Positions 10,755 through 37,585 of a stretch of 64,000 bases of DNA are shown here, piece by piece; position 1 is the stretch's first letter, and every line of letters begins with the position of its first letter. Origin of the DNA: Filobasidium wieringae (taxonomy: Eukaryota; Basidiomycota; Tremellomycetes; Filobasidiales; Filobasidiaceae); NCBI GenBank assembly GCA_001600055.1, contig BCIV01000019.1, positions 434,001 through 498,000 of the forward strand, given 5' to 3'. A model generated the notes under the pieces. The model saw only the letters and a list, made by a program, of their open reading frames with translations, was not told the DNA's origin and did no database searches. The position numbers and the translations under genes are program-made.

Positions 10755-13700
10755 TCATGCTGCTGCGGCCCGATCGGCACGGTCCGCTGCTAAAGAAGCG
10801 ACAGTGATACCTGCTCGTAACACTTTGGCGATGGTAGACAGTAAGTCTGTCCGTCTCACGGGTTTAGAGACAAAGTCGTCCTGTAGGACCGAAGCGGGTC
10901 AGCGATCAAATTATGGAGTCAGTGGTACCAAAGACACCTACCATTCCAGCTGCCAAACATCTCTCCTTATCGCCCAGCATAGCGTGTGCCGTCAGAGCAA
11001 TGATCGGTACCCTCTTGTACCCTTCCTGCTCTTCCAACACCCTTATCATACTGGTAGACTCTAATCCTCCAACGACGGGCATCGAGACATCCATGAGAAT
11101 GACAGCAAACGGTCGCTTCTCCTTCATAGCATCTCTGTATTTCTCGAATGCTACTTGACCGTTGTCTGCGACATCGACTCGGTGACCACCCCCTTCGAGA
11201 AGCTTGACGGCGAGCTTTTGGTTGACAAAGTTGTCCTCTGCTAGGAGGATGTCCAGAGATTTGTTCTTGCCCTGATCGGTGGGCTGTAATTGATGGCTTT
11301 CCAGGGCAGGGAGCAACGCACTAGAAAGGTCGGCCATATTGAGAGGGGTTGTGAAGTAAGAAGTAATCCCGACATCCAAGCAGGTCTTGACAGGTACGGG
11401 AGAAAGGAGTTCGTCTTCCTCGGAAGGCAAAGCTAGTAATCGCCTTCTCGATTCGGACAAGTGTAGGTATCGAGGGTTATCAGGTCCAGGGGGTACGTTT
11501 GTTGGGGAAAGTAAAACGATCGGAATGAAACGCAGGTGTTCAACCTCCCTGAGTTTCTCTGCGGCGAGGATGGAGTCCACGATCACAGCGTGATACAGTG
11601 GGACTCCATCTCTACTGCTCAGACTCAAGCCCCAGACCTCTTGTACGGAACGAATGACAACGGGTCGCAAGTTCAGTTCCTTGAGTTTATCAGCGACACC
11701 TGTCGTATCTCCGAGAGTGTCGATGAAGAGGATATGTCTTCGAGCCCATGGAGCCAGTCGATCCAGCACCTGAGCGGGAGTCCGGGTGGTCTTCTTCGCC
11801 ATCATGGTGAAACAGAATCGACTTCCTTTCCCATAGACACTCTCAACCCAGAGTTTTCCTCCCATCAAGCTGACAAGTCGTTTGGAGATCGACAGACCTA
11901 ACCCGGTTCCTCCATACTTTCGAGTTGTCGATCCATCCGCCTGAGCGAAAGTGTCGAAGATCAAGTCCAACTTGTCCTGTTTGATACCGATACCGCTATC
12001 GGCCACGCAGAACTCTAGCTCGACAGCATCCTCGTAGTCCCTGACGAATCGACAGCTCAAGGCGACCTGTCCTTTGGTCGTGAACTTGACCGCATTACCG
12101 ATCAGATTGGTGATGATCTGTCTCAATCTCAACGTGTCACCGATAACATGATCCGGTAGTGCGGGATCTACGTTGACGATCAAATCCAGACTGTTTTGAG
12201 CTGCTTTCACGCATAGGGTCTTGAGGACGCCGAACAAGGTGATCCGTAGCGAGAAAGGAATCTCTTCCATGGTCATTCGACCGGCCTCGACTGCGGATAG
12301 ACAATCAGTCAGTAGAGATACTGAATGAGATAGAATCGAAGCTTACTCTTGGAAATATCCAAGATATCGTCGATGATGGTGAGTAGGGATCCAGCCAATT
12401 GCGAGACGATCATCAAGTTTTCCCTGTATGAGAGCGGTCAGCGCTGATCAACAGTTATGAAATACTCAATATCTACCTCTGCTGCCTGTTGAGCTCGGTC
12501 TCGAGTGTAAGAACGGTCATCCCAATGATACCGTTCATAGGCGTTCGGATCTCGTGCGACATGTTTGCCAAGAATTCACTCTTCGATCGGTTGGCAAGTT
12601 CGGCAGCCTGACGAGCTTGAGTGTTTTTAGAGATGGATTCTCTCAACGCTCCGACCATCTGATTGATCTTGGTCTTTAAGGAATCCATCTCTCCGCTCGC
12701 TTCGACCGTGATGAACTTGGTGAAATCGCCATCCGTAGCTGCCGCAGAGATCTGTGCGAAAGCTCGCACTTGACTCGTCAAGTTGGCGGCTGTAAGAGTA
12801 GGCCAAGAAGATCAGCCACATCGTCCATAATACACGGTCGAACGGAACTTGCCCATAGCGTTGACATTGGTCCTGACAGATCAACATCACATGAGCGAAA
12901 CCCAGTACCGACAACCACCTTTACAACTCACGTGATCTCCTTCCAAACCCCCTCAACGTTTTCGACCTGAGCTTGAATACCCAACTTTCCTTCAAGTCCG
13001 ACCTGCTGAGCGACCCTGACGACCTCGGAGGAGAAAGATCGCAAGCTATCTACCATGCCGTTGACGTCGATCTTGAGGAGCTGGATCTCTCCGTGGGCGG
13101 AGACGTCGATCCTGTGGTCCGGTTTGATCAGTATAGAGATGTCATCGAGACCAGGTGACAACTTACTTTTGCGAGAGATCACCCCTAGCGATGGCTCGGG
13201 TGACCATAGCGATCCCCCTAACCTGAGTAGTCAAGTTCTATCACGCCGTATAAACGATCAGCGGTCGTTCCCTGAGCATCTGTGTGCTCCCCAAACCCAC
13301 CCCGGCCATCAGATTGACGTTATCCAAAAGATCCTTCCATTCACCCTTGGCATCCGGTACGACGGCCTGACCACCCAACCGTCCTTCCGTTCCTACGGCG
13401 ATAGCGACTTTCGTCACTTCCGCAGTGAAGACACGTAATTGCGATACCTGTCGCAAAGGCGGGATTCAGCGACAAGGAATCGACGGGAAAGAGAGAGACG
13501 TAAAAGGGGCGGACCATTCCGTTGACGGTCAATTTGAGACCCAATATCTCACCCGCGCTGTCCTGGGTGGTCAACAGCTCTGTCAAATCGCCTGCAGCTA
13601 CCGCACTGGTGACCTGAGCGATCTCTCGAACTCTATCGAGCTTTGTACATCAGGGACCACTCCATCTCTATCCCACGAGCATGACGATGACTCACTGTTC

Positions 13701-19730: not shown

Positions 19731-21535
19731 ATGCCCGCTCGCGCCACTCGATCGACGAAACCGTCTTCTGCCAAGAGAGAACCCCCTGTTGCCGAAAAAA
19801 CGGGCGGAAATGGGCTCGATACGGGGTTCAAACTGTCCGATTTGAGTTTCTGGTATGTCGGGGATAGCAACGTGAAATGGTCCATCAAGGGGAAAGACGC
19901 TCTCTTCATCTGTTCCAATGACGATCATGGGGTTCGTCTGGACGTGATCGAGGAGCAGATGGGGGAGTGGTACACCCCCGAGGCGGCACGGGAGGCAGCG
20001 CTGAAGATCGCTAGGAAGATCGATAGGGAGCAGGGCACGGATTCCACCGGGGAAGGGTTGGAGAGGAAGAGGAAGAGGGCGAAAAGGGAGAAGGTGAAAC
20101 GGGAGGAAGAGATGGATGTGGGGTCCCCGAATGGCGAGGAGGAGGTCAAGGAGGAGGACATGGAGGATGAAACGGAGGAACAGGTGGAACGACAGGTCAA
20201 AGAGGAACCCACCGAAGAGTCGGAAATCACACCACGTCCCTCCCGATCCAGATCGACCAAAAAGCAGCCCGTCCCCGAACCCATCACCAAACTCGAGCCC
20301 ACCAAACTCGAACCCGACCCTGAACTCGATCCAACCAGCTCCACCCCCACCTCCGCATCCAAGAAGAAACCCAGCAACAAATACAACCTGACACCCGGCG
20401 AGACCCCGTTCCCCTCCCACCCCCATCCGACCCGTGAAGAATGTCAAAACGTCATCGACCTCCTCAGTACGGTCCACGAGCGTCCGGAACGTACCAAGAT
20501 CCCGAGCGTCACCATGCCCGGTTGTGGCGAAGTCCCTGCGGTCTTGGACTCGCTGATGAGGACCATGTTGAGCGCCGCCACGACCAGTGCCAATTCTAGC
20601 CGAGCGTTTCAAGGGATCGTTGAGAAGTATGGACTGCTGGAGACGGGCGAGGGGAAGGGGAGTGTGGATTGGAATAAAGTCAGGTTGGGAACGAGGGAAG
20701 AGCTCTTCAAGACGATCCAATGCGGTGGACTGGCACAGAATAAGAGCAAGAATATGAAAGCCATCCTCGACATGGTTTACGAAGAGAACCAAACCCGACT
20801 CGCTCAATTCACATCCCCCTCCCTCCCCGACCCTGCCGGCGCCGCTAACGAATCCTCCACGGAAAAACGAACCGAAATCACCACCGCCCAATCGGAAATC
20901 CTCTCCCTCAACCACCTCCACAGCCTCTCCACCTCGGCCGCTATGGAAAAACTAACCTCATACCCCGGGATCGGGGTCAAGACCGCCTCCTGCGTCCTCC
21001 TCTTCAACTTCGAACGCGGTTCTTTCGCCGTGGACACGCACGTGTGGAGACTTTGTAGATGGCTCAATTGGGTGCCACAGGGGGCGACGAGGAATCAGAC
21101 GTTTAGTCATTGTGATACGAGGATCCCGGATGAGATGAAGTATGATTTACACGGGTTGTTTTGGAAACATGGGAAATATTGGTCAGTCCGGCGTTCGCGT
21201 TCACTCGACCTTCCCCCCCNNCCCCCCCCCCCCCCCCCGTCGTCGTTTTTACTTTTCACTCATCCGATCTTTTTCGATTCGCCTCGATCAGCCCGAAATG
21301 CCGCATGATGCCCGTCAAGGGAAGACCGGATTTGGATAACATGGTTTGTCCCATTGATGATCTCATCAAAGCTGCGGGGGGACGAAGGGCTCCTATGGAG
21401 AAGAAACGAGCGGCTGGGTCTGGGACGGGTGTCAAGGGGAAGGCCAAGGCCAAGGCCAGGGGGAAGGGGAAGAGGAAGAGGGAGGAGAGTGAGGAGAGTG
21501 AGTTGTCGGATTTGACTGACAGTGAGGATGAGTGA
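19731..21535 (+). CDS. HhH-GPD DNA glycosylase / endonuclease III-like protein
   Basis: Base-excision repair glycosylase of the helix-hairpin-helix-GPD superfamily, presumably nuclear. Exons 19731-21181 and 21292-21535 give 564 residues. Residues 120-240 are a charged, disordered insert. The glycosylase core spans about 245-490 and ends in the hairpin LTSYPGIGVKTASCVLLF, with the catalytic Lys, and VDTHVWRLCRW, with the catalytic Asp. The iron-sulfur cysteines of endonuclease III are only partly kept: after HGKY there is CPKC and one more Cys 16 residues on. The tail is Lys/Arg-rich, a likely nuclear signal, then acidic. The intron contains a C-run and two undetermined bases, which do not touch coding sequence. 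Specificity cannot be read. Confidence 0.88.
21218..21238. repeat. Poly-C tract with two undetermined bases in an intron
   Basis: A run of C broken by NN lies in the single intron of the glycosylase gene. It is a typical sequencing or assembly weak point; the true length of the run is unknown. Confidence 0.9.
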
Positions 21536-22919: not shown

Positions 22920-24033
22920 TCACTCCAGAGCAGGTGCGTTCGCTCGAGGATCCTTATCCCCTCCCCAATTGGAGATGGTTCTCCAAGCACCATCGGGTCG
23001 AATCTGTAATCGAGAACGCACGATAGTAAGCACAAAATCGGTGGTTGAAGGAGCTCGTCTTTTGTGTCGAACTTACGTCACATGCGTTCATCATGGAGTT
23101 TTCGATCAAGAACATGACGGCGTGAACGACTTCCTCGGGTTCACAAGCACGACGGGGGAAGATGGCAGCGGCATCGAGTTCGGACACCATGTAAGGCAAT
23201 CGATCGCCCATCATCTTGGAGGCTACCGCAGAGGGCGAGACCGAGACCACCCTGATACCGAATGGACCGAGGAAGTCTGCAGCTCCGGTAGTTATGCCCA
23301 ACACAGCAGCTAGATATTCAAATTGAGCGATCAGACGATTTGCGTGAGACATCAGACGATATGGGTCTGCACAAACTCTTGGTAGGACCGTATGTCAAAC
23401 ATCTCGCTGGGACAGGGTTGGCGACCGCAGAGGCAAAGTTGACGATGACCCCTCGCTCTTCGGATACACGAGGAGGGAAGGCATCACCTTCCGTTGAGGA
23501 ATACTGGGAATTGATAGCATCGGCGACGCAGGCATCGACGACCTGTTTGTAACGATCATGATCAACAACGATGCAACAGGTGAGCGGCACTTTGCACTCA
23601 CGAAAGTACCGTAAATGTTGGTTTTAGAAATCTCCAAGAAGTCTTTACAGGAATCGGCCATCTTTGCAGACCACTTCCTAGATCGAGAAATGGCAGCACA
23701 GTGGACCGCACCGAAAAGAGATCCTTTGGGGATGACCTTGAGAGCCTCTTCACAATTGCGGGAAACGACATCGACATCAGAGATATCAGTTTTGTAATAG
23801 AAAGCCTTGTCCTTTGAGTAACCCTCGACGATCTGCTTTCCCTTCTCTTCAGGAAGAACATCGAAGATGACGACGATTCCGCCTCGGGAGAGAATCTCAC
23901 GCGCCACTCCGCCTCCCAGAGCACCGCATCCTCCGGTGATAATGAAAGCTGCGATGAACATGACGTCAAGATGATGTCTGAAGGGACACATCGCTGCAAG
24001 GTTGTGTTACTCACCTCGTCCTTGGACCTTCAT
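22920..24033 (-). CDS. Short-chain dehydrogenase/reductase
   Basis: NAD(P)-dependent oxidoreductase of the classical SDR type. Five exons (24015-24033, 23602-23948, 23377-23542, 23077-23309, 22920-23003) give 282 residues; the first exon is only 19 nt. The cofactor loop is TGGCGALGGGVA. The catalytic Ser is in VNFASAVA, and the Tyr and Lys are in YGPTK. The segment GPFGIRVVSVSPSAV is standard for the fold, and the end DGAWR fits the usual C-terminus. It is divergent from the MFS transporter; two copies of the TCCG-N4-CGGA motif lie between them. I infer a sugar or polyol oxidation step in the cluster. Substrate unknown. Confidence 0.88.
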
Positions 24034-24274
24034 GATTGATCAATGTGCGTTTGTGCCGATGGATAGTGACTTGAGGATGAGAGGGTAGGGGGGCGATCGG
24101 CTTTGAATGAAAGGTGATGTGAATCATAGTTTGCTGGCACCATGTTGTTTCCAAGTCAAGATAGAGCATATATATATATGGGGACCACTAACGATACAGT
24201 AACGGATTTCCTTGATTCTTGATTCTCGACCAGGACGGACTAGGGCTATCTCGGTCGTCATGTGTCCAAGTACT

Positions 24275-24293
24275 CCGGTCCGTGAACGGAGAT
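24275..24293. promoter_or_regulatory. Inverted-repeat site TCCG-N4-CGGAGAT plus CCGGTCCG, SDR/MFS promoter
   Basis: TCCG-tgaa-CGGAGAT at 24279-24293 overlaps the octamer CCGGTCCG at 24275-24282. Inverted CCG/CGG triplets with a fixed spacer are the known binding pattern of Zn2Cys6 dimers. The same site recurs in the other promoters of this cluster. Confidence 0.7.
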
Positions 24294-24311
24294 CACGATT
24301 GTGACCAGTTG

Positions 24312-24327
24312 TCCGTTGGCGGAGAAA
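24312..24327. promoter_or_regulatory. Second TCCG-N4-CGGAGA site in the SDR/MFS promoter
   Basis: TCCG-ttgg-CGGAGAAA lies 33 bases from the first copy, about three helical turns. Two sites at this spacing suggest cooperative binding by the cluster's zinc-cluster protein (inference). Confidence 0.7.
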
Positions 24328-24582
24328 GCTTTCGGTCGCGCATCGGGCACGCGGAATCCGGACCTGGGGCCCAGGTCAAACCCGAAGGCCGCTCAGACAT
24401 CGCCTATATGAAGCGCGCTGAGATCGACGTTTCAGAACGCGCTGATCACTCTCCTTCAGTACACTATAAACTTCTTATCAACCTTCTAAACCTAAACCTT
24501 GTTCCAACAGACTTGCAAGGTGTCACCGACACAACCATATATCCCCACAGATAACGAATCACAGGATACAGAGTCTCTCGAG

Positions 24583-26892
24583 ATGAACAAGATCGACCGC
24601 GCTACTGGTGCGTCGACGTCAGACGAGGTGGACACCCACGATCAAAAGTCGAAGAAGTATATCTCGGACCCCGCTTTCGATACGAAATTCGAGACCGATC
24701 ACGTAGAACATCTTGATTCGGCCCAGCGATTGGACGACAATGAACTCCTATTTGTAAGTTTCATACCGAAGTATACACATGGTGGACCCAAGGGCGCTTA
24801 CCTAGATTCCATCTTGTTTCAGAACGAGAACTTGGTACGCGCGGAAGCCGAGGATAAAATGACCCCCTTCTTGGCCTTCTTGATCCTTACCGTGAGTCGT
24901 CACTTTGCTATCATAGATCAAAAGTCCTTCTGATCAAAAGCAAATGCAGGCGGCGCTCGCTGGCTTTCTCTGGGGATACGATACCGGGATCGTTGGGTCG
25001 GCCCTGCCCATGGTTGGAACAGATTTAGGACACGTCCTGTCTGATGGTGAATCTGAGATAATCACCGCGGCCACTACCATTGGAGCCATCTTTGGCGCTC
25101 TAATCCTTGGTACCCTTTCGGATAAGATCGGACGGAAGCTTTCGATGGTTGTTGCCGATATTGCGTGAGTTGATCCAACAACAAGTTGCAAATATGACGC
25201 GACCTTGATGACAACATTCCGCCCATTGATAATTGAAGCTTCACTATCGGAGCCGTAATCATTGCCGCCAGTTACTGGGTCCCTATGATAATCATCGGTC
25301 GTTTGATTCTCGGTGTTGGGGTAGGATCCGCTGCTGTTATCGCTCCGCTTTAGTAGGTGGTCTTAAACATCTGGATACCCAAGGCCGCCGCTGATCCCGA
25401 CGTTCTACCCTCAAAGCATCTCCGAGTTAGCCCCTACTGCCATGCGAGGTCGGTGCGTTGGTGTCAATGCATTTTTCATCCCATTCGGTCAGGTTTGCGC
25501 CAGCGCTATTTCTATCCCCTTCAAAAATGTGAAGCATAACTGGCGGATTCTATGTAAGCGGTCCTCATACGTGGAATCCCTTGGCCCAATTATCTTCACC
25601 CGCTGACCACACTATCGATTAACACAGTCGCTTTGGGTGTCGTACCGTCTCTCCTTCAACTAATTCTCATGCATTTCCTTCCCGAATCCCCTCGTATCAT
25701 GGCCGCACGTGGAGAGAGGGAGCGGGCGAAAGCTATCTTGCGCAAGGTATACGGCAGCGCAACCGACGAGGTAATCGAGCTCAAGCTCCGTGTTATCGAC
25801 GTTACCATCAGGGAAATGTCCAAGCTCAACACTCAATACACTTTCCGTCAAAGAGTCAAGGTATTGTGGACTCATAAACCATACCGAAGGGCTATCATCG
25901 CCGTTTCCGGCATGCAAGCATTCGGGCAACTTACCGGTTACAACTCCTTGCTGTATTATTCCGGAACTCTGTTCGGCCTTTTAGGATTCTCTAATGCTGC
26001 AATCGCTGGACTTATTCCCTCTGGTGGTAACGCGCTCTGTGTGGTAAGTGGACCTACGGATTCGGTCTTGGATCTGCAGCTTGAACTAAGAGCTCGGTAA
26101 CCACAGTTCATCGGAAGTTCCATCGTCGATAAAGTGGGTCGTAGGAGACTGGTCTTGGTTGCTGTCCCATTCTTGATTGCTGGACAAATCTGGGCGGCCA
26201 TCGCCTTCCATTGTAAGTCTACACATATGGCTTGCTAACACTAAGCAAAATTCCTAACAAAATGTGCCATACAGTCATGACAAAGGATACCAACAGCCGT
26301 CTAGACGCTTCCTATCAGTACAGCACTGCATCGGTCGGAAGCGTCATCGGTGCGATCTGTCTCGTCGTAGTCGCTTTCGGGTTCTCTCTCTCCCACGTGA
26401 TCTGGCATCAGTCGGAATTTCTTGCTCTGGAGATCCGAGCTGCTGGTTCTGCGATCGCCACCACTTCTTGTTGGCTTGCTAATTTAGTCATCTCCGTCAG
26501 CTATCTTTCTCTCATGAAGTAAGTTGCTCTGGTAGAGGTGCTTCTGAGACGGCCGAATCACATCCGCGTTGCTGACTCTTTTTTGCTGACTCTTTTTTTT
26601 ACAGTAAGCTTACCCCTACCGGAACGTACGGTCTATACGCGGGATTCTGTGTGGCCGGCTTTGTGTTCACCATATTCTGTTATCCTGAAACGAGTAAGGG
26701 GTCTCATCCGCTTTGTCCACTGCTACATTTTTTGACGCCCATCAACTTATTCCAGAGGGCCTGTCTGTCGATCAAACTTCAACGTTGTTCCAGGATGATT
26801 ACGGTATCAAGAAGTCAAGAGTATTGCGTGACGACAAGGCTCTATTGGTCAGTCAATATAAGCAAAGGAACCTTGAGGGGGGCTTCGCCTAG
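24583..26892 (+). CDS. MFS sugar porter, probably polyol/myo-inositol type
   Basis: Twelve-helix plasma-membrane transporter of the sugar porter family. Ten exons (24583-24753, 24823-24891, 24950-25164, 25239-25352, 25417-25553, 25628-26043, 26107-26212, 26275-26518, 26605-26693, 26756-26892) give 565 residues. Family signatures are GYDTGIVGSALP, DKIGRK, PESPRIMAARGE, QAFGQLTGYNSLLYYS, DKVGRRRL and PETKGLS. The N-terminus is acidic and cytosolic, about 80 residues. The pattern GYDTGIVGSALPMVGTDLG resembles tremellomycete inositol-transporter-like porters, but the substrate is an inference. It is divergent from the SDR and probably co-regulated through the two inverted-repeat sites. Confidence 0.9.
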
Positions 26893-27194
26893 AAAGCGGG
26901 CATGTTGCCGCGCTGCCTGACCTGACACGGTTCATCCTCGGCATTGCCTGATATGCCTCGATCTGAATGTACGGAAAAAAAGTCCCAAAGCGAAATCGAA
27001 CTCAGACTTTCATGTATCTGACACTCTATGTGTATGCACTTATTATATTCTTCTGATTGAAGATCCTGTTGTTCTTCGAAGCCAAATCTTGCGTTTCAAG
27101 TTCGAACTTGCGTCTCTTCTGAGGCACGCTGTATCAGGCCGCCGGCGCGCGTGAGTCAACGACTGCTCGGCTCCCGACATGTGCCCGCAGATCT

Positions 27195-27224
27195 CCGGTC
27201 CGAAACTTGTCCGTTATCGGAGAT
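27195..27224. promoter_or_regulatory. TCCG-N4-CGGAGAT site and CCGGTCCG octamer, lactonase promoter
   Basis: CCGGTCCG at 27195-27202 is followed by TCCG-ttat-CGGAGAT at 27210-27224, and a further half site CGGAGAT at 27243-27249. The layout repeats that of the SDR/MFS promoter, about 130 bases before the lactonase start. Confidence 0.7.
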
Positions 27225-27351
27225 TTGACTTGTCGCGCGCGTCGGAGATCGAGGATCGTGAGGTTTGGAATGTAAATGTACAACGATCAGATCTTTAGCG
27301 TTCGTTTCGCTGGCCATTCGAGCACTGGAACCGGTCAATCAGAACATCGTT

Positions 27352-28631
27352 ATGCGGACCATCACCGTCAAAGAATCTCTCCTTCCACTTGGACTGTCTC
27401 TTGGCGAAGGCAAGTGGGCTAGAGATCAGAGACCTTTGCCTGTTTCATTTCCAAGCTGACGCGGCGTACGAGTACTATAGGCTGCATATGGGTCAGCCAT
27501 AGATGTGAACGTTTTGGCATGACGAGTGATGCTTATCAGACACTGAACCAATAGGATACGAGAGCCCAGAGACTTTACTTCGTCGATATTGATGGCAAAA
27601 AGATTTATACGTACGAGCCTTCCACCGGCATTTATGGGTACCAAACGTTCGCGCGCAAGATTTCAGCACTCGCTCTGAGGGAATCGGAGCCTGGTGTAAC
27701 GATAAAGCCCTCTTTCGCCGACCATAAGAACACTGAACTGAATGATGTGTCCTTTACATTTACAGCTCGTCGGAACGGATGAAAACGGATATATAATTAT
27801 ACCTCCCGAGTGCATTCCTTTCCCTCCCACAAATACAGCCACGCCAGTACAACCGATAAAGATGTTTTCCGCCAACGAGCTCCCTATAAGGCAAGGCACG
27901 AACCGTTTCAACGAGGCTGCCGTCGATCCTCGGGGACGTTTCCTCGCAGGGACGATGGGCCATGCGGTTGGCGAGTTCGTGGGCACCTTGTATACTTGCG
28001 AGAGAACTGGAAACGGATATTGCAATAAAGTAATTCTGAAGGACGTCACTTGCACGAACGGCATGGACTGGACCCCTGATCATAAGACAATGTGCGTGAC
28101 AATGAATTACATGGAGAAGGCCCGCTTAACAACACTTGATCCTCTTAGGTATTTCACTGATAGCTGGACCAAGGAGATAGTAACGTTTGACTATGATATA
28201 GTGAGTGAGACCCGAGCACTACGGATGCGGCAACAGAGATCACAAGCGTTGACTACTCTTTTCCGGTCAAACAGGATACCGGGGAAATATCTGGCCGTGA
28301 AATTTTCTCCCAGTTAGACGAGAGCAAATACGGATGGCCAGATGGTCTCTGTATTGACGATCAAGGTGGTATCTGGTCGTCTCGTTGGCAAGGTGGCAAG
28401 TTGATTCGCTTGACTTCCGACGGTCAGATCGATGTCATCATTGAATTCCCTAAAGCATGTAACATCACTTGTTCAATCTTCGGAGGCCCAAATCTCGACG
28501 AGTTGTACGTTACCTCGGCGAGTGCAACTTGCAGCGGCGATTCCGTCGATGAGAATCCGCAAGGGGGAGATCTTTTTGTCATCAAGAACCTTGGGTTCAA
28601 AGGACAAGAGCGCAATAGATTCGTTGGTTGA
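27352..28631 (+). CDS. SMP-30/gluconolactonase family lactone hydrolase
   Basis: Six-bladed beta-propeller lactonase that hydrolyses sugar lactones using a divalent metal. Exons 27352-27417, 27555-27695, 27766-28091, 28149-28200 and 28275-28631 give 313 residues, the normal length. Signatures are LGEG, with the metal-binding Glu, RLYFVDIDGKK, RFNEAAVDPRGRFLAGTM, the YFTDS block, and YGWPDGLCIDDQGGIW with the metal-binding Asp. The first intron (27418-27554) needs a GC donor to give LGEGKWDTRAQRLYF; another junction is possible there. A lactonase next to a dehydrogenase and a sugar porter fits oxidation of an aldose to a lactone, then opening of the ring. The cluster motif lies in its promoter. 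Confidence 0.87.
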
Positions 28632-28964
28632 CGGTGACGGTTTATGATAGATACACAAAGATGTTGACCGTGTAAAGCTCGTCGAAATGGCACATCCACA
28701 AAATGAGTGGCAACGCCTGACCAACATGACCGATACTACTGCCTACTTCACTACAATCGCAGACCACAGATCATATATACTTCCGTTGATGCTTACGTAA
28801 CGGGTTGTGAATGTCTGGTGGACTGCCGAACTCTTCCCGGAAATGTAACTTGCTGCTTGCTGTTGACATTGAATCTCCTAGGGCTATTAGTATACAATTG
28901 CTGTTGAGGACTACAAATATCAATGCAACGTACAAAAGCCAGCCAAGATTACCTTTCGTGACCG

Positions 28965-31900
28965 ATGTCTGCGAACAGTATGGAGGGTTCCCTTCTAGGT
29001 AAACGCAAAGAAACTGCCGAATTATCGTCCCTCGACCAGCCAGTCCGACCTAGCACAAGAAAGCAAAGGGTCACCACGAGCTGTGCGGGTACGTTTTAGC
29101 GGACAGATTCAGAACGAAAGAAAGATTGACTTGTCCGTGGGAGACTATGAGAGCGTTGACCTGTTTGCCTTTCCGTCATTAATAGAATGCCGGCGACTTA
29201 AATTGAAGTGTGATCGACAAGGTAAGAGCCCAAGAAACGGCTTCTCAAACTTGAGCGTATCGAATTGATCAGACTAAGTCTATCATTTTCATAGTGCCTT
29301 GCTCAAATTGCATACGGAAGTCATGTGCCAACCTTTGTCCGGAAAAAACAAGACAGAGAGTGATGCTACGGTAAGTCACTCCCACTCGCGGATCTCAACG
29401 AGAATACAACCGCCAGCCGCAGGATTATATCGGACTGTATAGATAACATAACGTCTCTTTTCTATTCCACAGCATTGGTTCAAAGGAAGAAGCAGCGTTG
29501 CCTCCTGACAATTCAAATGTCGTTCCACATGAGCGAGCTCGGGCTGATCCGGACCGAACGCGGCCCTTACTTCCTTCTGAGGACGATACCGACATAGGCT
29601 CGATACCTGACCAACAGAGTGTACCCGGTCAAGACGCTTCCAGAGACCCAGATAGGGTTACCGGCTATGACATGACTATAAACCCAGAATGGTCGTTGCC
29701 TTCTCAGCTGCTCCCAACCTCTCGCGAACAAGATCGGGCACTAATATCGGATCTGAGTCACTCAGATTTACCGCTCACGCAAAGACTTCAGCAAGTCCAT
29801 CAGAATCGACAACATCTCGAACAGAACGACGAAAGGCTATCAATGCATTTGAATACCGTCGGATCCATGGCGGAAGGATCTGACGCCTTGGGACTGTGGC
29901 AAGGCTCGCAAAGGGATGATCTTCCTAATTTGGAAACCAACACGCCAGCAAGACAAGAATTCCTTGAAACGGGATTTGACATCCAGACATATGACAATCG
30001 AGGCCAAACCAATGGCGACAAACCCGTACCTTTCCAACCGACAGATTGTTCAGTGTTGGGGTCTGGTACTTTGGTGATTAGTCATTCTGGTCGCTCCAAG
30101 TTCTTAGGTCCAACCGCTGGAAGCGAGTGGTTAAATGACGTGAGTGCACTAAACCTCGGCTTTAATACTTTCACTTCGTGTTGACCACGTATCTTTACGG
30201 AATATGATCTCGCTACAGCAAGAGGCTGGTGACGAATACGGTCCATCTGCAATGCCATCTCCTGTTCTGAATGCAAATATAGATGAGAGATCCACTGCTG
30301 GCAACGGCAAGGGTGTTCCACATACTATGCCACAAGATCTGGACAATCATCTCAATACGTTCCCGTTCCACGGTGCAAGGCAAACAATGAGCACCAGAGG
30401 TCTCTTTGGCAATCTTCCCGCTAAAGACGAAGCGAAGACCTTGGCGGACTGTTATTACCGGCATTTTGCGTGGCAGTGAGTATCCCCGTTGAGGTTTAAC
30501 AGGGTGGAGCTAGAATAAGAACGAATTCAAGCTGACAAGTATTGCGCTCAGCTACAACGTCTGCCCGCGATATGTGTTCGATCCGCTCTTTGAATCTATA
30601 TACGCGCAATGTCGAACCGACGCAGAACCACAAGTCAACTCACAACAACTTGCCCTCCTGTTCATCGTATTGGCTATTGGAACCGTTTTCAATCTCGAGC
30701 TTCTACCTAATGACCCGGCTGCGGAAATTTATTGCACAGCTGCACAACAATGTTTGTCCAAGGGAGACTTCCTGAGCCGAAATACTATCGATGGAATCAG
30801 AACAGTGGTAGGTTCGAATGCTCCATATACCTAGTGACCTTATCGCTCACTCGAGAGCCGATTCTTTCGATTCTTGCTTCCAGCATATCATGGCGCACTA
30901 CTTGCTGTAGGCCCGCCAATACCTGTGTATAATTGGAGGAGAGGACTTATCAACAAATTGTAGGCTTACCAAACGAGGTAGTAGTGGAGATTCTGCTTGG
31001 CCATTATGGGGAATCAACGTTAGACTCATGCATGCGGTAAGTCTGAGCGCGCAGTCCAGCACAATGTAGATCATCCCTTACACAGTACATCGTAGATGGG
31101 TCTCCACCGAGATGGCTCACGCTGGAACTTGTCCGCAGATATCGTGGATGATAGAAGGTAACGCGACATTTGAGTTGAATTTCTGCCTTGAACCTCATAT
31201 AACCAACCTTACTTGTTGGCAAACAGACGGATCTTTTGGGAGACTTATACGGCTGATGTTTTTCAAGTGAACCATAACTGCCGAGACTTGCGCTACGCAG
31301 CCTGTGCTGACGCGATTGTATCACAATACGACAGGCGAACTGCTTCTCACGACCGTAATTATCGTTATGGCTGTCTCACTTGCAGTTCGATCTGACTTTT
31401 CTACAAGCACAGGAGCGCCATATCCGCGGGTCAGTTCGATACCATGTTTCCGAAGGAGATTGCTGCCGAACAAGCCCGCCGCGGTTCCAATGAGGGGTCT
31501 GGGTTTTATCTCGCGAAGTTTCGGCTAGTCGAATTGTCCAAGTGGTGAGTAGTAACGCTTTCGCTTGGATATCAAGCGATATATCATTTGAGCAACCAGA
31601 TTTTTGCGCGCAAAGTGTACTGGACGAAGCCTCACGTATTCGACCATCAGCCATAACAGTGATTGACGATCTCTGGAGCCGGATGTCAGTCAAAAAGTCT
31701 CGTCTATGTCCCTGAACAGATAACTGATACGAGGGTCGCGGCAGACGTCAATTCGAAATCGATGTCCCTTATGAATTAAGATGTCGACCTGCTCTTCTTG
31801 CTCTACCTTCGGCTTATCCAGACCCTCAAGCTGCTATTTACGCTAGTCCGGAAGTTGCTCGAGGACAGTTACAGCTTACTTTCCAGCAACACACTCTGGC

Positions 31901-32805
31901 GCTGAACATCTGCGAAGCTGTACTATTCCTGCAACGCCCATACTTTATGAGAGCGCTACATGATCGTCCGTCTGATCCGTCGCGTTCAGCATATGGACCG
32001 TCGTTCCTGGCGGTAGTCGAAAGATGCCATGTCAGTCCAGTACCCTGCTGCACTATTTGATGGCACGAATCCCGCTGATGTAGCATTCTGATCAAAGGTA
32101 GTCATCGCCATAGTTACAAGTATAACTGAACTATACCCGAGCGCCTGCTTTCGGCACTGGTATCTCTGGGTCAGTTGTGATCCCGACTGAGACGCATTCA
32201 TACTATACACACTGATACCCAGAATACCCACATGGTTCTTCACATAGTACCATGTCTTCACGGCGGCCATCTGTATGGGGTCTTTAGTCTTATTATCTCC
32301 AAGCAATGAGTTGACGCAGTTCGCGCTCTCTTTGATCGATACAAGCATCGTAATGTATAGCAGCGCGGTTCAAAGTCGAGCTTCCCAAAGGGTTGTTCGC
32401 AACTTGCAAACGCTGATGCAGCTGAGGCAAAGAGCCTGGACCGCGAGTAGCAGCTGCAAGAAAGATGGCACAGCACAACAAGCGCCAGAAACACTGTTAG
32501 ATGCAGATAATGGGCCGGCTGGCACTCCTGATGCAGAAACGGTGCTTCTAGGATGGCGGACAAGGTTGATTGCGCGTGCCAAACTAGGCAACCAAGTCGC
32601 AACAACTATTAACCAGGAGAATCATCCAGACACTTACGGGAATATCTCCTCAACGACGTTCGAGCAATTTTCTGAAGCGATCACAATGGCATTTCAATCC
32701 AACTCGGAGACTTTTGACCCTCCAATAGGCAACGCTTCTCCGACCGACCTTCTGGATGTGCCGACCAACGAATTCGCAAGTTTTTTCGAATTCATATGTC
32801 CGTAA
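28965..32805 (+). CDS. Zn2Cys6 fungal transcription factor, cluster regulator
   Basis: Nuclear zinc-cluster activator. The DNA-binding domain is pieced from exons 28965-29088, 29186-29221 and 29295-29370: CAECRRLKLKC, then CSNC and two further Cys, the C-x2-C-x6-C-x5-C-x2-C-x8-C pattern. Further exons are 29473-30139, 30219-30475, 30552-30807, 30884-30906 (23 nt), 30964-31036, 31096-31157 and 31227-31266. They carry the middle homology region (FDPLFESIYAQC, MGLHRDGSRWNLS, RRIFWETYTADVF). Later coding blocks, near 31434-31550 and 31730-32805, continue it (FDTMFPKEIAAEQARRGS; LALNICEAVLFLQRPYF), but I could not fix every splice site between 31267 and 32250. A broken copy cannot be fully excluded. 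Its place in the cluster suggests it binds the shared inverted repeats. Confidence 0.85.
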
Positions 32806-33199
32806 ATCTTGTACTGACACAACACAGTAGCTTCAGCAACTTTGGGGTGAAAGCACAGGTACTGATCTTAGGGATTCATACGCTACACCATGACACGATG
32901 TTCCTGTGCATTATTCCCTCCTGTGCATACCCTTACGGAGTTAATCGAATATCATGCAGTGGCGGGTTGGTTGTGTTCACCTGAAGATGAAGAGTTCAAT
33001 AGAATATAGCTTCTGTACGGTGTATTACTCAAATCACTTGCTGCCGTTGAACGGCTGGGCCGAATGCACGGCCGATAGGGGCTAGATAGGTGTTATCAAG
33101 CCTTAACGTAGGATGCTATATCAATAAGTATTTGGATATTTCTCACAGCAAATGACAGGAAGGACAAGTCGTTCATCGACGCTCTTATATATATACATC
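32806..33199. other. Short intergenic gap between converging genes
   Basis: About 390 bases between the end of the zinc-cluster gene and the end of the flavin monooxygenase. I see no gene; it must hold both 3' ends. Confidence 0.5.
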
Positions 33200-35508
33200 T
33201 CAAGCTTCGTAAGGCTTTTTGGCGACACCTTCCAACATGGCTTTGATCCTCAAGGCTACCCTCTTGGAGTGGTAGCGTCCGTGCTGAAGGGTCCCGACCA
33301 TGATCCATAGATTGGGAACCCCACAGTTTCGCCATGCAGAGTTGAGCTCCCCCTCTGCATCCATCCCCCATATCGGCTTGCAGCGATCAGCTATGTCTTG
33401 CCCTAGTGTTCTGCGAACCGAGTCGATAGTGTTAGAGAAACCGGTGGCCATCACAACCAAGTCATAATGTTGGTCGCGGTTTCCGTTCAGAATAACTTTG
33501 TCTTCGGCGAAGCTATCCCATGCAACGAGGTGTCAGTTATCTATCATTCCCAAGCGCAATTATAATCCTCACCGATCGATGGAACCCTGCTCGACTCTGA
33601 TTTTTCCGTTCATGACTTGTTCGCACGCGCCAGCATCGAAGTAAAACCCTCCATTTCGAGTGTATCCCAAGGTCTGGGTACCGGTTCCGCGTTGACCTCT
33701 GTATGTCTTGAATCCAGCGCTTTCCATTCCATCGATCAAGTCTTTGTCCAATGTTGCAAGATCTTCGGCTAGTCGACGTCCAAGTTCTTCGCCGGGACCA
33801 ACAGGCATACTGTAGGCAATTCGATCTGCGATATCGAGACTCGGTCGGCTTCCGTCCTTGGGCTCATAAATCCCGATAATCTAGGGTTTCGCGAAGACGC
33901 GTCAGATCGAGTTTCATTTCGGTTCATATCCTCCTCATGTGCTGACCTTTGGCACCGAATGAGTCAGACTCATCAAATATGTCGGTGAGCGTTGCAAGAT
34001 TGTAACATCGATTCCCCTTCGGGCGAAATCGTAGGCAGTGTCGAATCCGGAAGAAGATGTTCCGACGACCATTACCTTCTTGCCGATCCAATCGCGCGAA
34101 CTGTCGTGGGCGGTAGAGTGACGAATCGTACCCTTGAAAGTGTCCATACCAGGAATCTTGGGTAGCATAGGTACGCCAGCAAGGGACGTAGCCATGACCT
34201 GATCACTCGCGAAGTGTTGTCAACTTCCGATATCATCGCGTCTATGTAAGTCAGTGACATGCTTACCACGTGCTTGGGATGAAGGGTCCGGTTCTCCTTG
34301 CCACCTCTATCGATCCCCAGGGTCCATTCTCCAGTGGTCTCGTTTTGAGAACAGGAGGTGACGTTGGAATCGGTCCAGGTGTACAGCTCCATAGCCGAAG
34401 CGTACCACTCCAACCAGTCTCCGAGCTTCGCGGCGGGGGTATACACGGGCCAGTGATCTGGATAAGGCATGTAAGGCAAGTGGTCTATAGTGATCGCGGC
34501 CCATGTCAATATGCGTTGTCGTGGTCTCTGAGCGATTCGTCCAAACTCACCGGCCCAGTGAGGGAAATGGAGGGATAAAGCTTCGTATCTTTTCCTCCAG
34601 TTATCTCCGATCCTCTCATTTCGCTCGATGACCAGTGCAGGAACGCCCAACGCCTTTAGTCGCGCGGCCATCATCAAACCGCTATTTTAAGCAAGGGAAA
34701 ATTAATGGACTGTGATTACTGCTACGATCGAGAGAACTCCTACTTGTGGCCGCCACCAACAATGACCACCTGAGGGTCAGAATCATCGAACCGAGTGTCA
34801 ATCTCCCTCTGAGCCAGCCAAGAAAGAGGTCCGACCATATGCCCGTCCCGGTTTGGTAATTCGGGGAACTCGTGTAAAGACTCGATCACCGTATGAAGCG
34901 TCCAGACCTTGACTCCATCGGCAGTGTTGACCAAGTTTACGACGGCACTGGCTCCGACCACATCAGTCTCGAATGAAACATGCAGCTGTAGATAGTTGAG
35001 GTCTGGATACGGATCCTGGATTGAAGGCGTCGGCTCGAGAAGACGGAACTTTTTGGAGGGGGAGCGAGGGAAGAGGTCCTCGGCCGCTTGAGCGATACTG
35101 GCTTGACCATTGAAAGTCCTATATTCCCAAGAATAAACGATCTTGTCCCTCCAAACACCTAGAAAACAGTGTCCCGCAATCGGTCAGTGGTGTGGAATAG
35201 GGTGTGTTGTCTACATACAGAGAGAATAACATACCACCTGGTAGGAATAATCCCGTAAACGCCTCGGCGTCATTATTGGCCATAGCGGCTTGCCAGTCGT
35301 CCACGAATGTTTGAGCGACTTTGACGGTATCCGTCTTGATATCAAATTTGTAACCTCCAAGACGCTCAATTGTAGGCAAATCGACGGGATATTTGAACTC
35401 GTACATGAAGTCGTCTGGTACGACCTTTGCAGGGTGACCGTCTTTGACCATGGAGTTCTTCAGGTCGGCCAAGGTGGGCTTGGGATAGGTCTCTACGGCG
35501 GTCGGCAT
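33200..35508 (-). CDS. Flavin-containing monooxygenase with N-terminal NTF2-like domain
   Basis: FAD- and NADPH-dependent monooxygenase. Seven exons (35235-35508, 34744-35158, 34551-34681, 34267-34484, 33947-34198, 33573-33880, 33200-33512) give 636 residues. Residues about 45-170 look like an NTF2/SnoaL-type cone (TFVDDWQAAMANNDAEAF, VWRDKIVYSWEYRTF). The FAD motif is VVIVGGGHNGLMMAARL, the monooxygenase block is FKGTIRHSTAHDS, the NADPH motif is VMVVGTSSSGFDTAYD and the C-terminal motif is VVMATGF. The fusion is known from uncharacterised fungal FMOs. Substrate unknown. It is divergent from the TIM-barrel gene, and three copies of the cluster motif lie between them. Confidence 0.88.
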
Positions 35509-35683
35509 GGCGTAGCGTTGTAAGTGTGGGTATGGGTTTAAGTGTATAGTCGTATAGACCGTCTAGGTGTATAGGGTCTAGGATGTAGTGGTGTATAGAT
35601 GTATATACGCCGTGAATCTGGCATGGGATATCAGCTTATCAGACCGCTGGTCTAAATATCGAACGGCTTTCAGAAATGACGGA

Positions 35684-35698
35684 AATCCGCCACCGGAT
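35684..35698. promoter_or_regulatory. CCG-N4-CGG site (ATCCG-ccac-CGGAT) in the FMO/TIM-barrel promoter
   Basis: A perfect five-base inverted repeat around the same four-base spacer, differing from the other copies only at the last base (CGGATC, not CGGAGA). Confidence 0.6.
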
Positions 35699-35720
35699 CT
35701 AGTTTCGAAGGTGCTTGAAT

Positions 35721-35738
35721 ATCTCCGGCAGCGGAGAT
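35721..35738. promoter_or_regulatory. Perfect palindromic site ATCTCCG-N4-CGGAGAT
   Basis: Seven-base arms match perfectly around gcag. It is the best copy of the motif in the window and defines the full consensus. Confidence 0.75.
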
Positions 35739-35904
35739 AACTCTCACGGGCATGTGTCACAAGTGCTTCAAGCCGCAGCAGGTGGCGAAACACGAGTTTC
35801 ACTACAGTGAGCTAGACGCTGCAGTTGCTGACGGCCTGATCGACCATCTTGCAAGATTCCAAATCGAAGGTGTTTCCAAGACGCTCGGATGATGGCAACG
35901 CGGT

Positions 35905-35941
35905 CGGACCGGAAACGCCTATTTGGTCCGCGACCGGAGAT
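35905..35941. promoter_or_regulatory. TCCG-N4-CGGAGAT site and inverted CCGGTCCG octamer
   Basis: TCCG-cgac-CGGAGAT at 35927-35941 follows CGGACCGG (octamer in reverse) at 35905-35912. It lies about 200 bases before the TIM-barrel start. Confidence 0.7.
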
Positions 35942-36145: not shown

Positions 36146-37585
36146 ATGTCGGCCTCCACCTCCTTAACCCGAGCCGACCTCGAAGCCCTGCCAATTTCAT
36201 TCGCAACCCCTTCTCTAGGCATGCACCCGTCTCATACCCTTGAGAGCAAACTCGACGCAATGAGAAGTGCGGGTTATAAACTCGTCACGCTCGGATTCGG
36301 TAACTTCATGGCTTGGGTCAGAACCCGTCAACCCGACCTGTGAGTGAGGTGTTAGCCTGACGACGGGAAGCTCCGACGCTACTGGTGCTGACATTGGGCA
36401 TCTCTCCGGATCTCTTCAGCCCGGCATCTACGTGTCCTCCCGAGTGGATAAGGGACGACGAGCCTGCTCCGTCAGATGACAAGATCTGGGAGGCCATGTA
36501 CTCTGAAGCCGAGTTCCTCGAGAACCACGTCAAGTCTCTTGGCATGCAACTGGTCGTCTTCCAGCCGATCAGCCAATTCGAAGGATGGCACAAGGGCTCA
36601 AAGAGATACGAATTTGTCAGGGCCAAAGCGGAAAAATGGTTACGTTTGTGTGCAATTCTAGGTGTGCAATATCTCCAGGTGAGATATTCTCTCTATTCCC
36701 TGGGCATCGCAAATCGACTCGGATGCTGAAATGAAACGAACGTTCAGCTGGGTTCAAACGATCAAAAGGATGCTGATGCGCCATACGAGTCACTCTGTGA
36801 AGATATGGAATGGATCGCACAACTCGGTTCTCGGCAATCTCCTCCTATCAAGATATCCTATGAACCTTGGTGCTTCTCCCATCGAATTCCCTCATGGGAA
36901 GGATGTTGGGATGTCGTCAAGAAGGTCGACCATCCGTATCTCGGTTTGTGTATCGATGTCGCACATGTAAGTGTCATTCCAGGAAAGGACAGATCGAGGG
37001 CGGAGCAGGACTTGATATGCTGATCGCACTCAATCGAAAGATCGCCCTATCCCCTGACTATGGTGGCTATGACCCTCTGACTGGAGGAGGCTATACCGAC
37101 TCCGAGTTTGAGGACGAGTTGTCCCGCATCCGCGCGGTTCCGGGCGACAAGATTCACTTCTTCGAGATTTCGGACGTCATCAAACCCGAACCTCCCCTTC
37201 TCAAGGGTAGCAGTTTCGATGAGTATCACAAATCGGACCCGGAGGCTAGAGTGCTGTTCACCTGGAGCATTTGCGGGAGGTGTCTTCCTCTGGTCGGTAA
37301 GAATGCTGGAAAGGACGTCAAGAGCGAGCTCGATCTGGGAGGCGCGAGAGCTGTCGACATCATGAAAGCCGTTCTAGACACTGGGTTTCGAGGTGAGTCA
37401 CCACTCTCGAATTGACGTGCGTCATGTATTGATGCTCTCCTGGCAATGCTTCGTCAGGACCATGCTCTTTCGAGGTCTTCGAACAGCAGTACATGAACAC
37501 AAGCGACTCTTCAGTCACAAGACGGTACGCAGAGGCCGGTCAACTATCAAAAGAAAGGATGTTCAAGGCCTTGTTGGAGATGTGA
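36146..37585 (+). CDS. Sugar phosphate isomerase/epimerase-like TIM-barrel enzyme
   Basis: Xylose-isomerase-like TIM barrel (AP endonuclease 2 superfamily), which includes sugar isomerases, inosose and 3-dehydroshikimate dehydratases. Exons 36146-36339, 36420-36678, 36748-36966, 36993-37392 and 37458-37585 give 399 residues. Metal-ligand blocks visible are KISYEPWC (Glu), YLGLCIDVAH (Asp, His), KIHFFEISD (Glu) and CSFEVFEQQY (Glu). The intron between 36966 and 36993 is only 26 nt, yet it is the only join that keeps the frame and the conserved IDVAH block. The end is fixed by the TGA at 37583. It fits a downstream step on an oxidised or keto sugar (inference). Confidence 0.85.

Follow-up and report, generated by a model that had tools for sequence, protein, structure and literature searches.

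A TCCG-N4-CGGA motif in the promoters of a Filobasidium wieringae gene cluster and its probable zinc-cluster regulator

Genes and promoter sites of the cluster

In a 64,000-nucleotide stretch of Filobasidium wieringae DNA (contig BCIV01000019.1 of assembly GCA_001600055.1, positions 434,001 to 498,000 of the forward strand; hereafter the window, whose numbering is used below), six gene models, each with Pfam support, lie between 22.9 and 37.6 kb, encoding a short-chain dehydrogenase (SDR), a sugar-type transporter of the major facilitator superfamily (MFS), a gluconolactonase-like protein (the lactonase), a Zn2Cys6 transcription factor (TF; the regulator), a flavin-dependent monooxygenase (FMO) and a TIM-barrel protein. 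Five strict copies of TCCGN4CGGAGA and a sixth, relaxed copy lie 131-449 bp from the predicted ATGs of the five non-regulator genes (Table 1). A sequence-only reading of the window had placed exactly these six copies in three intergenic promoters, and all of them were recovered there, between gene models and in DNA of low coding signal (best frame score ≤3.0). The three site-bearing regions measure 549, 459 and 637 bp (1645 bp in total), two of them being divergent promoters that hold 2 and 3 sites, each serving two genes. In the 333 bp of intergenic DNA upstream of the regulator gene no CCG-N4-CGG occurs, in agreement with the earlier reading, so that direct autoregulation through the N4 motif appears unlikely from the sequence, although absence of the site may still be compatible with autoregulation.

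The CGG triplets of the motif are everted (CCG-N4-CGG, the Leu3/LeuB type) rather than inverted (CGG-Nx-CCG) as first described. In the three promoters the everted N4 arrangement occurs six times and each of the remaining everted spacings from 0 to 20 at most three times, with flanking T and A on 6/6 of the CCG-N4-CGG copies and GA as well on five. Across the window, TCCG-N4-CGGA is present in 8 copies against 1.67 expected, a number reached in none of 100 shuffles, while every other spacing within 0-24 gives 0-3 copies. CCG-N4-CGG reaches 3.65 per kb in the three promoters versus a density of 0.31 per kb across a 292-kb background, which was mostly picked for holding a site, making the contrast conservative; similarly, the half-site CGGAGAT occurs 7 times in the promoters (both strands) versus 44 times in that background. 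The Poisson probability of 6 sites per 1645 bp, computed after the fact, is 5e-13.

Table 1. Promoter sites and gene models of the cluster (bp, base pairs; all positions in the window)
Feature	Position	Strand	Sequence or product	Location or support
Site 1	24279..24292	+	TCCGTGAACGGAGA	shared SDR/transporter promoter; 246 bp from SDR ATG, 293 bp from transporter ATG
Site 2	24312..24325	+	TCCGTTGGCGGAGA	SDR/transporter promoter; 21 bases beyond the 12-base core of site 1
Site 3	27210..27223	+	TCCGTTATCGGAGA	lactonase promoter; 131 bp from predicted ATG
Site 4, relaxed	35686..35697	+	TCCGCCACCGGA(TC), TCCGCCACCGGATC at 35686	shared monooxygenase/TIM-barrel promoter
Site 5, perfect palindrome	35721..35738	+	ATCTCCG-GCAG-CGGAGAT; core TCCGN4CGGAGA at 35724	monooxygenase/TIM-barrel promoter
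Site 6	35927..35940	+	TCCGCGACCGGAGA	208 bp from TIM-barrel ATG
SDR	22920..24033	-	282 amino acids	PF13561/PF00106
Sugar-type MFS transporter	24583..26892	+	588 amino acids	PF00083 3.9e-95; N-terminal exon boundaries uncertain
SMP-30/gluconolactonase-like protein	27352..28631	+	333 amino acids, 5 exons	PF08450 5.2e-59; hand model
Zn2Cys6 + fungal_trans transcription factor	28965..32805	+	911 amino acids, 15 exons	PF00172, PF04082
FMO	33200..35508	-	616 amino acids	match to PDB 8acs, 7.4e-86
AP_endonuc_2/xylose isomerase-like TIM barrel	36146..37585	+	383 amino acids	PF01261 2.7e-19

The perfect palindrome singled out by the earlier reading as the best copy was confirmed, while that reading's remark of noticing no other copy in the window was not, as two more occur at 13090 and 17154. 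The 13090 copy (window 13088-13103) is a perfect TCTCCG-N4-CGGAGA, TCTCCGTGGGCGGAGA, inside an exon-like open frame that seems to belong to a hybrid histidine-kinase gene, lying upstream of HATPase_c and response-regulator domains encoded on the minus strand; a Pfam search with the exon-like piece that holds the copy gave no match. The 17154 copy, TCCGTACCCGGA, stands in DNA with little coding signal. With such small corrections the sequence-only observation holds.

Two other promoter features were considered. No 9-mer other than TCCGGTCCG occurs in all three promoters (24274..24282 and 27194-27202 on the plus strand, 35905-35913 on the minus strand), where every copy lies close to an N4 site or overlaps one; it occurs at 218 places genome-wide versus 104 for its reversed control, with a corrected P of about 0.1, and may represent a second contact or a variant of the half-site, which is suggestive only. 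CGG-N20-CCG, present in 5 copies in the promoters, was dropped for want of common flanks.

Distribution of the motif across the genome

A scan of the 19.76-Mb genome for TCCGN4CGGAGA returned 53 strand hits, corresponding to 49 distinct sites, given that the 4 perfect TCTCCG-N4-CGGAGA palindromes, 1 of them in the cluster, were counted twice. Five of the 49 fall within the 11.7-kb cluster interval and 44 outside it, the genome rate of 49 x 64 kb / 19.76 Mb = 0.16 being near the 0.1 chance copies per 64 kb estimated from the sequence alone. Away from the cluster there are at most 2 strict sites per 11.7 kb, the closest pair being 8.9 kb apart on contig C2, and when 49 sites were placed uniformly at random 20,000 times, no placement gave 5 in any 11.7 kb, the maximum being 4. 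Tandem TCCGN4CGGA pairs with 0-30 bases between them were found at 2 places in the whole genome, both in the cluster, and at none for the reversed control. Although all P values were computed post hoc, neither the scan statistic over the whole genome nor the number of tandem pairs depends on which promoters were picked. For clusters of relaxed sites, the analysis covered the positions of the first 100 of 322, while the tandem-pair search covered the entire genome.

Many copies scattered over unrelated promoters had been named beforehand as speaking against a regulon, and this is not clearly what the genome holds: there are 43 strict sites outside the window, but they are single, and of the 23 whose surroundings we examined, 9 fall in open frames whose codon score exceeds 10 and whose length is at least 100 codons. 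No second strict site was found within the 8-9.9 kb stretch around each of these 23. When 10 frames were taken from five loci whose sites are weakly coding, Pfam searches revealed no theme in common, 4 frames remaining without a match and the other 6 matching nucleoside hydrolase (twice), proteasome activator, lipoxygenase, a ubinuclein domain and a peptidase dimerisation domain, with 3 of the 6 under the cut-off.

A stretch with three TCCGN4CGGA copies in 1.2 kb (C2:118692-119908) was rejected as a second regulon, one copy lying inside an open frame of 370 codons that shows coding signal, one in weakly scoring frames only and one in DNA with little coding signal, and the neighbouring open reading frames (ORFs), judged by eye, being unlike the cluster genes. 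Elsewhere, TCCGAAAGCGGAGA has identical 22-base surroundings at L007:2867 and L008:3888, 2.9 and 3.9 kb from the starts of contigs C18 and C33, which share the same ORF layout with an offset of 1,021 bp and look like a duplicated contig-end stretch; in C33 a lipoxygenase-type frame lies 3.7 kb off.

The regulator, the monooxygenase family and the enzymes

The regulator contains both a Zn2Cys6 domain (PF00172, 22.5 bits against a cut-off of 21) and a fungal_trans domain (PF04082, 45.7 bits against a cut-off of 23), its DNA-binding domain CAECRRLKLKCDRQVPCSNC... spanning exons 1-3, with uncertain exon joins near 31267-31407. This domain is strongly conserved among relatives, Cys pattern included. 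Compared with PDB chains, a profile of 12 such domains matched CBF3B/Cep3 at 7.3e-7, Hap1 at about 9e-5 and Leu3 at an E value of only 0.54, with Cep3, Hap1, Lac9, RSC30 and RSC3 all ranking ahead of Leu3, which is not the closest relative of the cluster domain. The closest homologues of both the regulator and the FMO come from Tremellomycetes (Saitozyma, Kwoniella, Apiotrichum, Naematelia).

To relate the two families, we compared the best 120 of 181 TF hits with the best 120 of 986 FMO hits, inferring a shared contig from equal lengths and taking TF relatives irrespective of orthology. In 20 of 29 hand-matched strains or species, covering Basidiomycota and Ascomycota, TF and FMO relatives lie on contigs of equal length, versus 4.1 expected from assumed genome sizes, and none of 200,000 draws reached 20. 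Gene-number distances, which rest on nine sharers since the remaining sharers carry no usable gene numbers, are 1-6 in Aspergillus multicolor, A. ambiguus, Kwoniella sp. DSM 27419, K. botswanensis and Lipomyces doorenjongii, and 21 in K. dejecticola. These comparisons suggest that the TF family tends to lie near the FMO family in Basidiomycota and Ascomycota, making the cluster regulator a natural candidate reader of the sites in the FMO promoter. The closest TIM-barrel homologue is from Pseudohyphozyma, and in P. bogoriensis TIM-barrel and FMO relatives lie on contigs with the same 85-kb length.

In keeping with a dedicated pathway, searches of this genome revealed no close paralogue of the FMO or the lactonase, the best matches reaching 31% over 72 residues and 36% over 74. 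The FMO matches JsFMO, a type II FMO with a SnoaL-like N-terminal domain (PDB 8acs), in two parts (query 69-414 and 452-610), its N-terminal stretch corresponding to the N-terminal part of JsFMO. Three JsFMO residues, His-216, Asp-217 and Tyr-458, are given as relevant to Baeyer-Villiger chemistry in the available part of PMC10028610. The presumed equivalent of His-216 is kept in the cluster FMO, whereas, on a residue count that assumes a 16-residue tag in the chain, Asp-217 is replaced by Phe and Tyr-458 by a Phe beside a Tyr, the aligned residue being Phe or Tyr depending on the register. A pathway of SDR, Baeyer-Villiger monooxygenase and lactonase, though attractive, was not supported by this residue comparison and was set aside, a Baeyer-Villiger step feeding the lactonase being a guess. 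Nor was the TIM barrel adopted as a 3-dehydroshikimate dehydratase, for which there were one source name and one PDB match; its PDB match, over residues 103-226 at 1.9e-13, is to a chain named 4-hydroxyphenylpyruvate dioxygenase.

In the hand model of the lactonase gene, the in-frame GEGCIW-DTRAQ at 27410-27554 requires an intron with GC-AG ends and an exon of 11 nt. Beyond the cluster, two N in a long C run at window 21220-21221 mark a small assembly gap within or beside the 3′ part of an HhH-GPD DNA-repair gene.

A probable cluster regulon and its relation to known systems

The placement of the motif and its genome-wide concentration fit a pathway-specific cluster regulon. Well-studied Zn2Cys6 proteins typically bind paired CGG triplets, whether inverted, direct or everted, and typically do so as homodimers, according to the available part of PMC5559640, and with everted pairs among the known arrangements the geometry of the cluster sites fits a Zn2Cys6 dimer. 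Taking these observations together, we propose, with a probability of roughly 0.7, that the six TCCG-N4-CGGA copies are operator or upstream activating sites of the cluster's own Zn2Cys6 homodimer, which would co-control five genes of catabolic type. In the homodimer, each of the two outward-facing CGG triplets, four bp apart, would be occupied by one zinc cluster, most likely with additional contacts to the flanking A/T bases of the CGGAGAT half. The SDR, transporter, lactonase, FMO and TIM-barrel genes would then be switched jointly by the regulator, most likely being activated in the presence of an inducer that arises from the imported substrate, while the regulator gene, having no site, is probably controlled otherwise. 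Judged from its DNA, the cluster is thus very probably run as one switch under its regulator, and its enzymes appear catabolic in type; where the sites lie, their preferred spacing, their unique concentration in the genome, the gene content and the contig sharing of the two families are observed, whereas we infer that this protein binds the sites, that it does so as a dimer and that it activates rather than represses, as well as the inducer and the pathway.

The regulon under the cluster's Zn2Cys6 protein was the central proposal of the sequence-only reading, and it is partly supported, by the motif in the promoters serving all five non-regulator genes, its concentration only there, the Zn2Cys6 and fungal_trans domains of the protein and the contig sharing of the TF and FMO families; what it leaves unexplained is the excess of N4 sites over the reversed control. 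Genome-wide, strict hits number 53 over the two strands versus 23 for that control, and relaxed TCCGN4CGGA has 322 sites versus 165, where uniform base composition would give about 301 by our own arithmetic. The N5 variant TCCGN5CGGAGA, absent from the cluster, has 25 strand hits (24 distinct sites; 19 for its own control), so that strict N4 and N5 stand at 49 versus 24 distinct sites with the cluster contributing only 5. Single N4 copies may thus be enriched genome-wide, through another factor that reads N4 sites or through coding bias. Furthermore, the regulator's DNA-binding domain is not Leu3-like, so that its N4 preference is inferred from the gene neighbourhood; 9 of the 29 strains or species lack TF-FMO contig sharing, one of them, Diaporthe amygdali, being set aside because there the TF and FMO relatives come from separate assemblies; and among the 20 sharers, three (K. 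bestiolae, Kwoniella sp. CBS 6097 and Cryptococcus sp. DSM 104549) have gene numbers 929-2119 apart, which is not close, leaving 17 sharers once these are dropped. All of these points weigh against control by the cluster's own regulator.

The N4 excess bears most directly on the possibility that a different Zn2Cys6 protein of the cell, for example a global regulator of the Leu3/LeuB type, reads the sites, with the cluster TF acting through other DNA or not at all. CCG-N4-CGG is the LeuB site in Aspergillus fumigatus, as established by electrophoretic mobility shift assay and surface plasmon resonance, and LeuB also controls genes beyond amino-acid synthesis, according to the available part of PMC6221358. 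The genome offers other candidates, with at least 41 Zn_clus matches in a list that omits the cluster's own split domain and includes some neighbouring matches, and the weak Leu3 match of the regulator family points the same way. We nevertheless consider this explanation unlikely, since clustered and tandem sites are restricted to the cluster, relatives of its TF share contigs with relatives of its FMO, and the cluster sites do not contain CCGGNNCCGG, the core of the Leu3 site. In addition, although ILV5 carries a conserved CCG-N4-CGG in Aspergillus, according to the portion of the literature available to us, no CCG-N4-CGG was found in 3.3 kb around the ILV5-type match here, this being one gene of several with partial promoter coverage.

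Should the cluster regulator indeed bind the sites, it might instead act as a repressor that keeps the cluster off until a ligand releases it. The DNA is equally compatible with both modes, as neither the sequence nor the position of sites 131-449 bp from the ATGs distinguishes an activator from a repressor; cluster regulators with Zn2Cys6 and fungal_trans domains are mostly activators, however, which makes repression distinctly improbable. That the sites arose by chance, or are a non-regulatory sequence feature of promoters, is very unlikely: single TCCGN4CGGA copies are common and over a third of the outside strict sites examined (9/23) lie in coding-like frames, but neither the density of strict sites in the cluster, unmatched in random placements, nor the post hoc Poisson value accords with this, and both of the genome's two tandem pairs lie in the cluster.

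At this locus the probable regulator, its targets and the motif can be seen together. To our knowledge, few binding sites are recorded for basidiomycete zinc-cluster regulators. More tentatively, and with slightly less than even odds, a Zn2Cys6 lineage unrelated to Leu3 may read everted CCG-N4-CGG with flanks of its own (TCCG-N4-CGGAGAT) and form an undescribed TF-FMO module linked across Basidiomycota and Ascomycota, making one DNA code predictable for uncharacterised clusters in many fungi. TF-FMO pairs with shared contigs, which occur in Aspergillus, Lipomyces, Kwoniella and Naematelia, provide a ready comparison set; if they carry the same everted sites, a DNA code and a pathway could be assigned to an uncharacterised regulator family. 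In the literature searched we found no description of this regulator-enzyme pair or of its motif. Among the matches listed, TCCGNNNNCGGA, CTCCGNNNNCGGAG and TCCGN4CGGA had no occurrence, CCGN4CGG was a term of the LeuB paper (13 times), most of the other papers listed dealt by title with papillomaviruses, and the available text yielded no further motif match beyond a second paper on branched-chain amino acids (PMC8262921); for combinations of FMO, Zn2Cys6, gluconolactonase, SDR and Kwoniella, no such cluster appeared by title among the matches listed.

Uga3, whose site is SGCGGNWTT in the available part of PMC4589623, was considered as a parallel and dropped. The Leu3/LeuB regulons of Saccharomyces and Aspergillus, as described in the portions of the literature available to us, resemble the cluster in their everted CGG half-sites, N4 spacing, Zn2Cys6 factor and sites in several promoters. 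By contrast, the cluster TF lies outside the Leu3 lineage by sequence, its sites prefer TCCG...CGGAGAT and concentrate at one cluster, and none of its five predicted targets is, judged by Pfam domains, a gene for branched-chain amino acids. DcGliZ and TerR are cluster-specific Zn2Cys6 regulators whose genes lie inside the cluster and whose short motif recurs in the promoters of the cluster genes. The cluster described here shares with them a regulator gene within the cluster and a short promoter motif, but the motif is different, the closest relatives are basidiomycete and the enzymes look catabolic. Overall, the everted CGG sites and the Zn2Cys6 gene inside the cluster are best read as a cluster-specific regulon, an arrangement well known in fungi.

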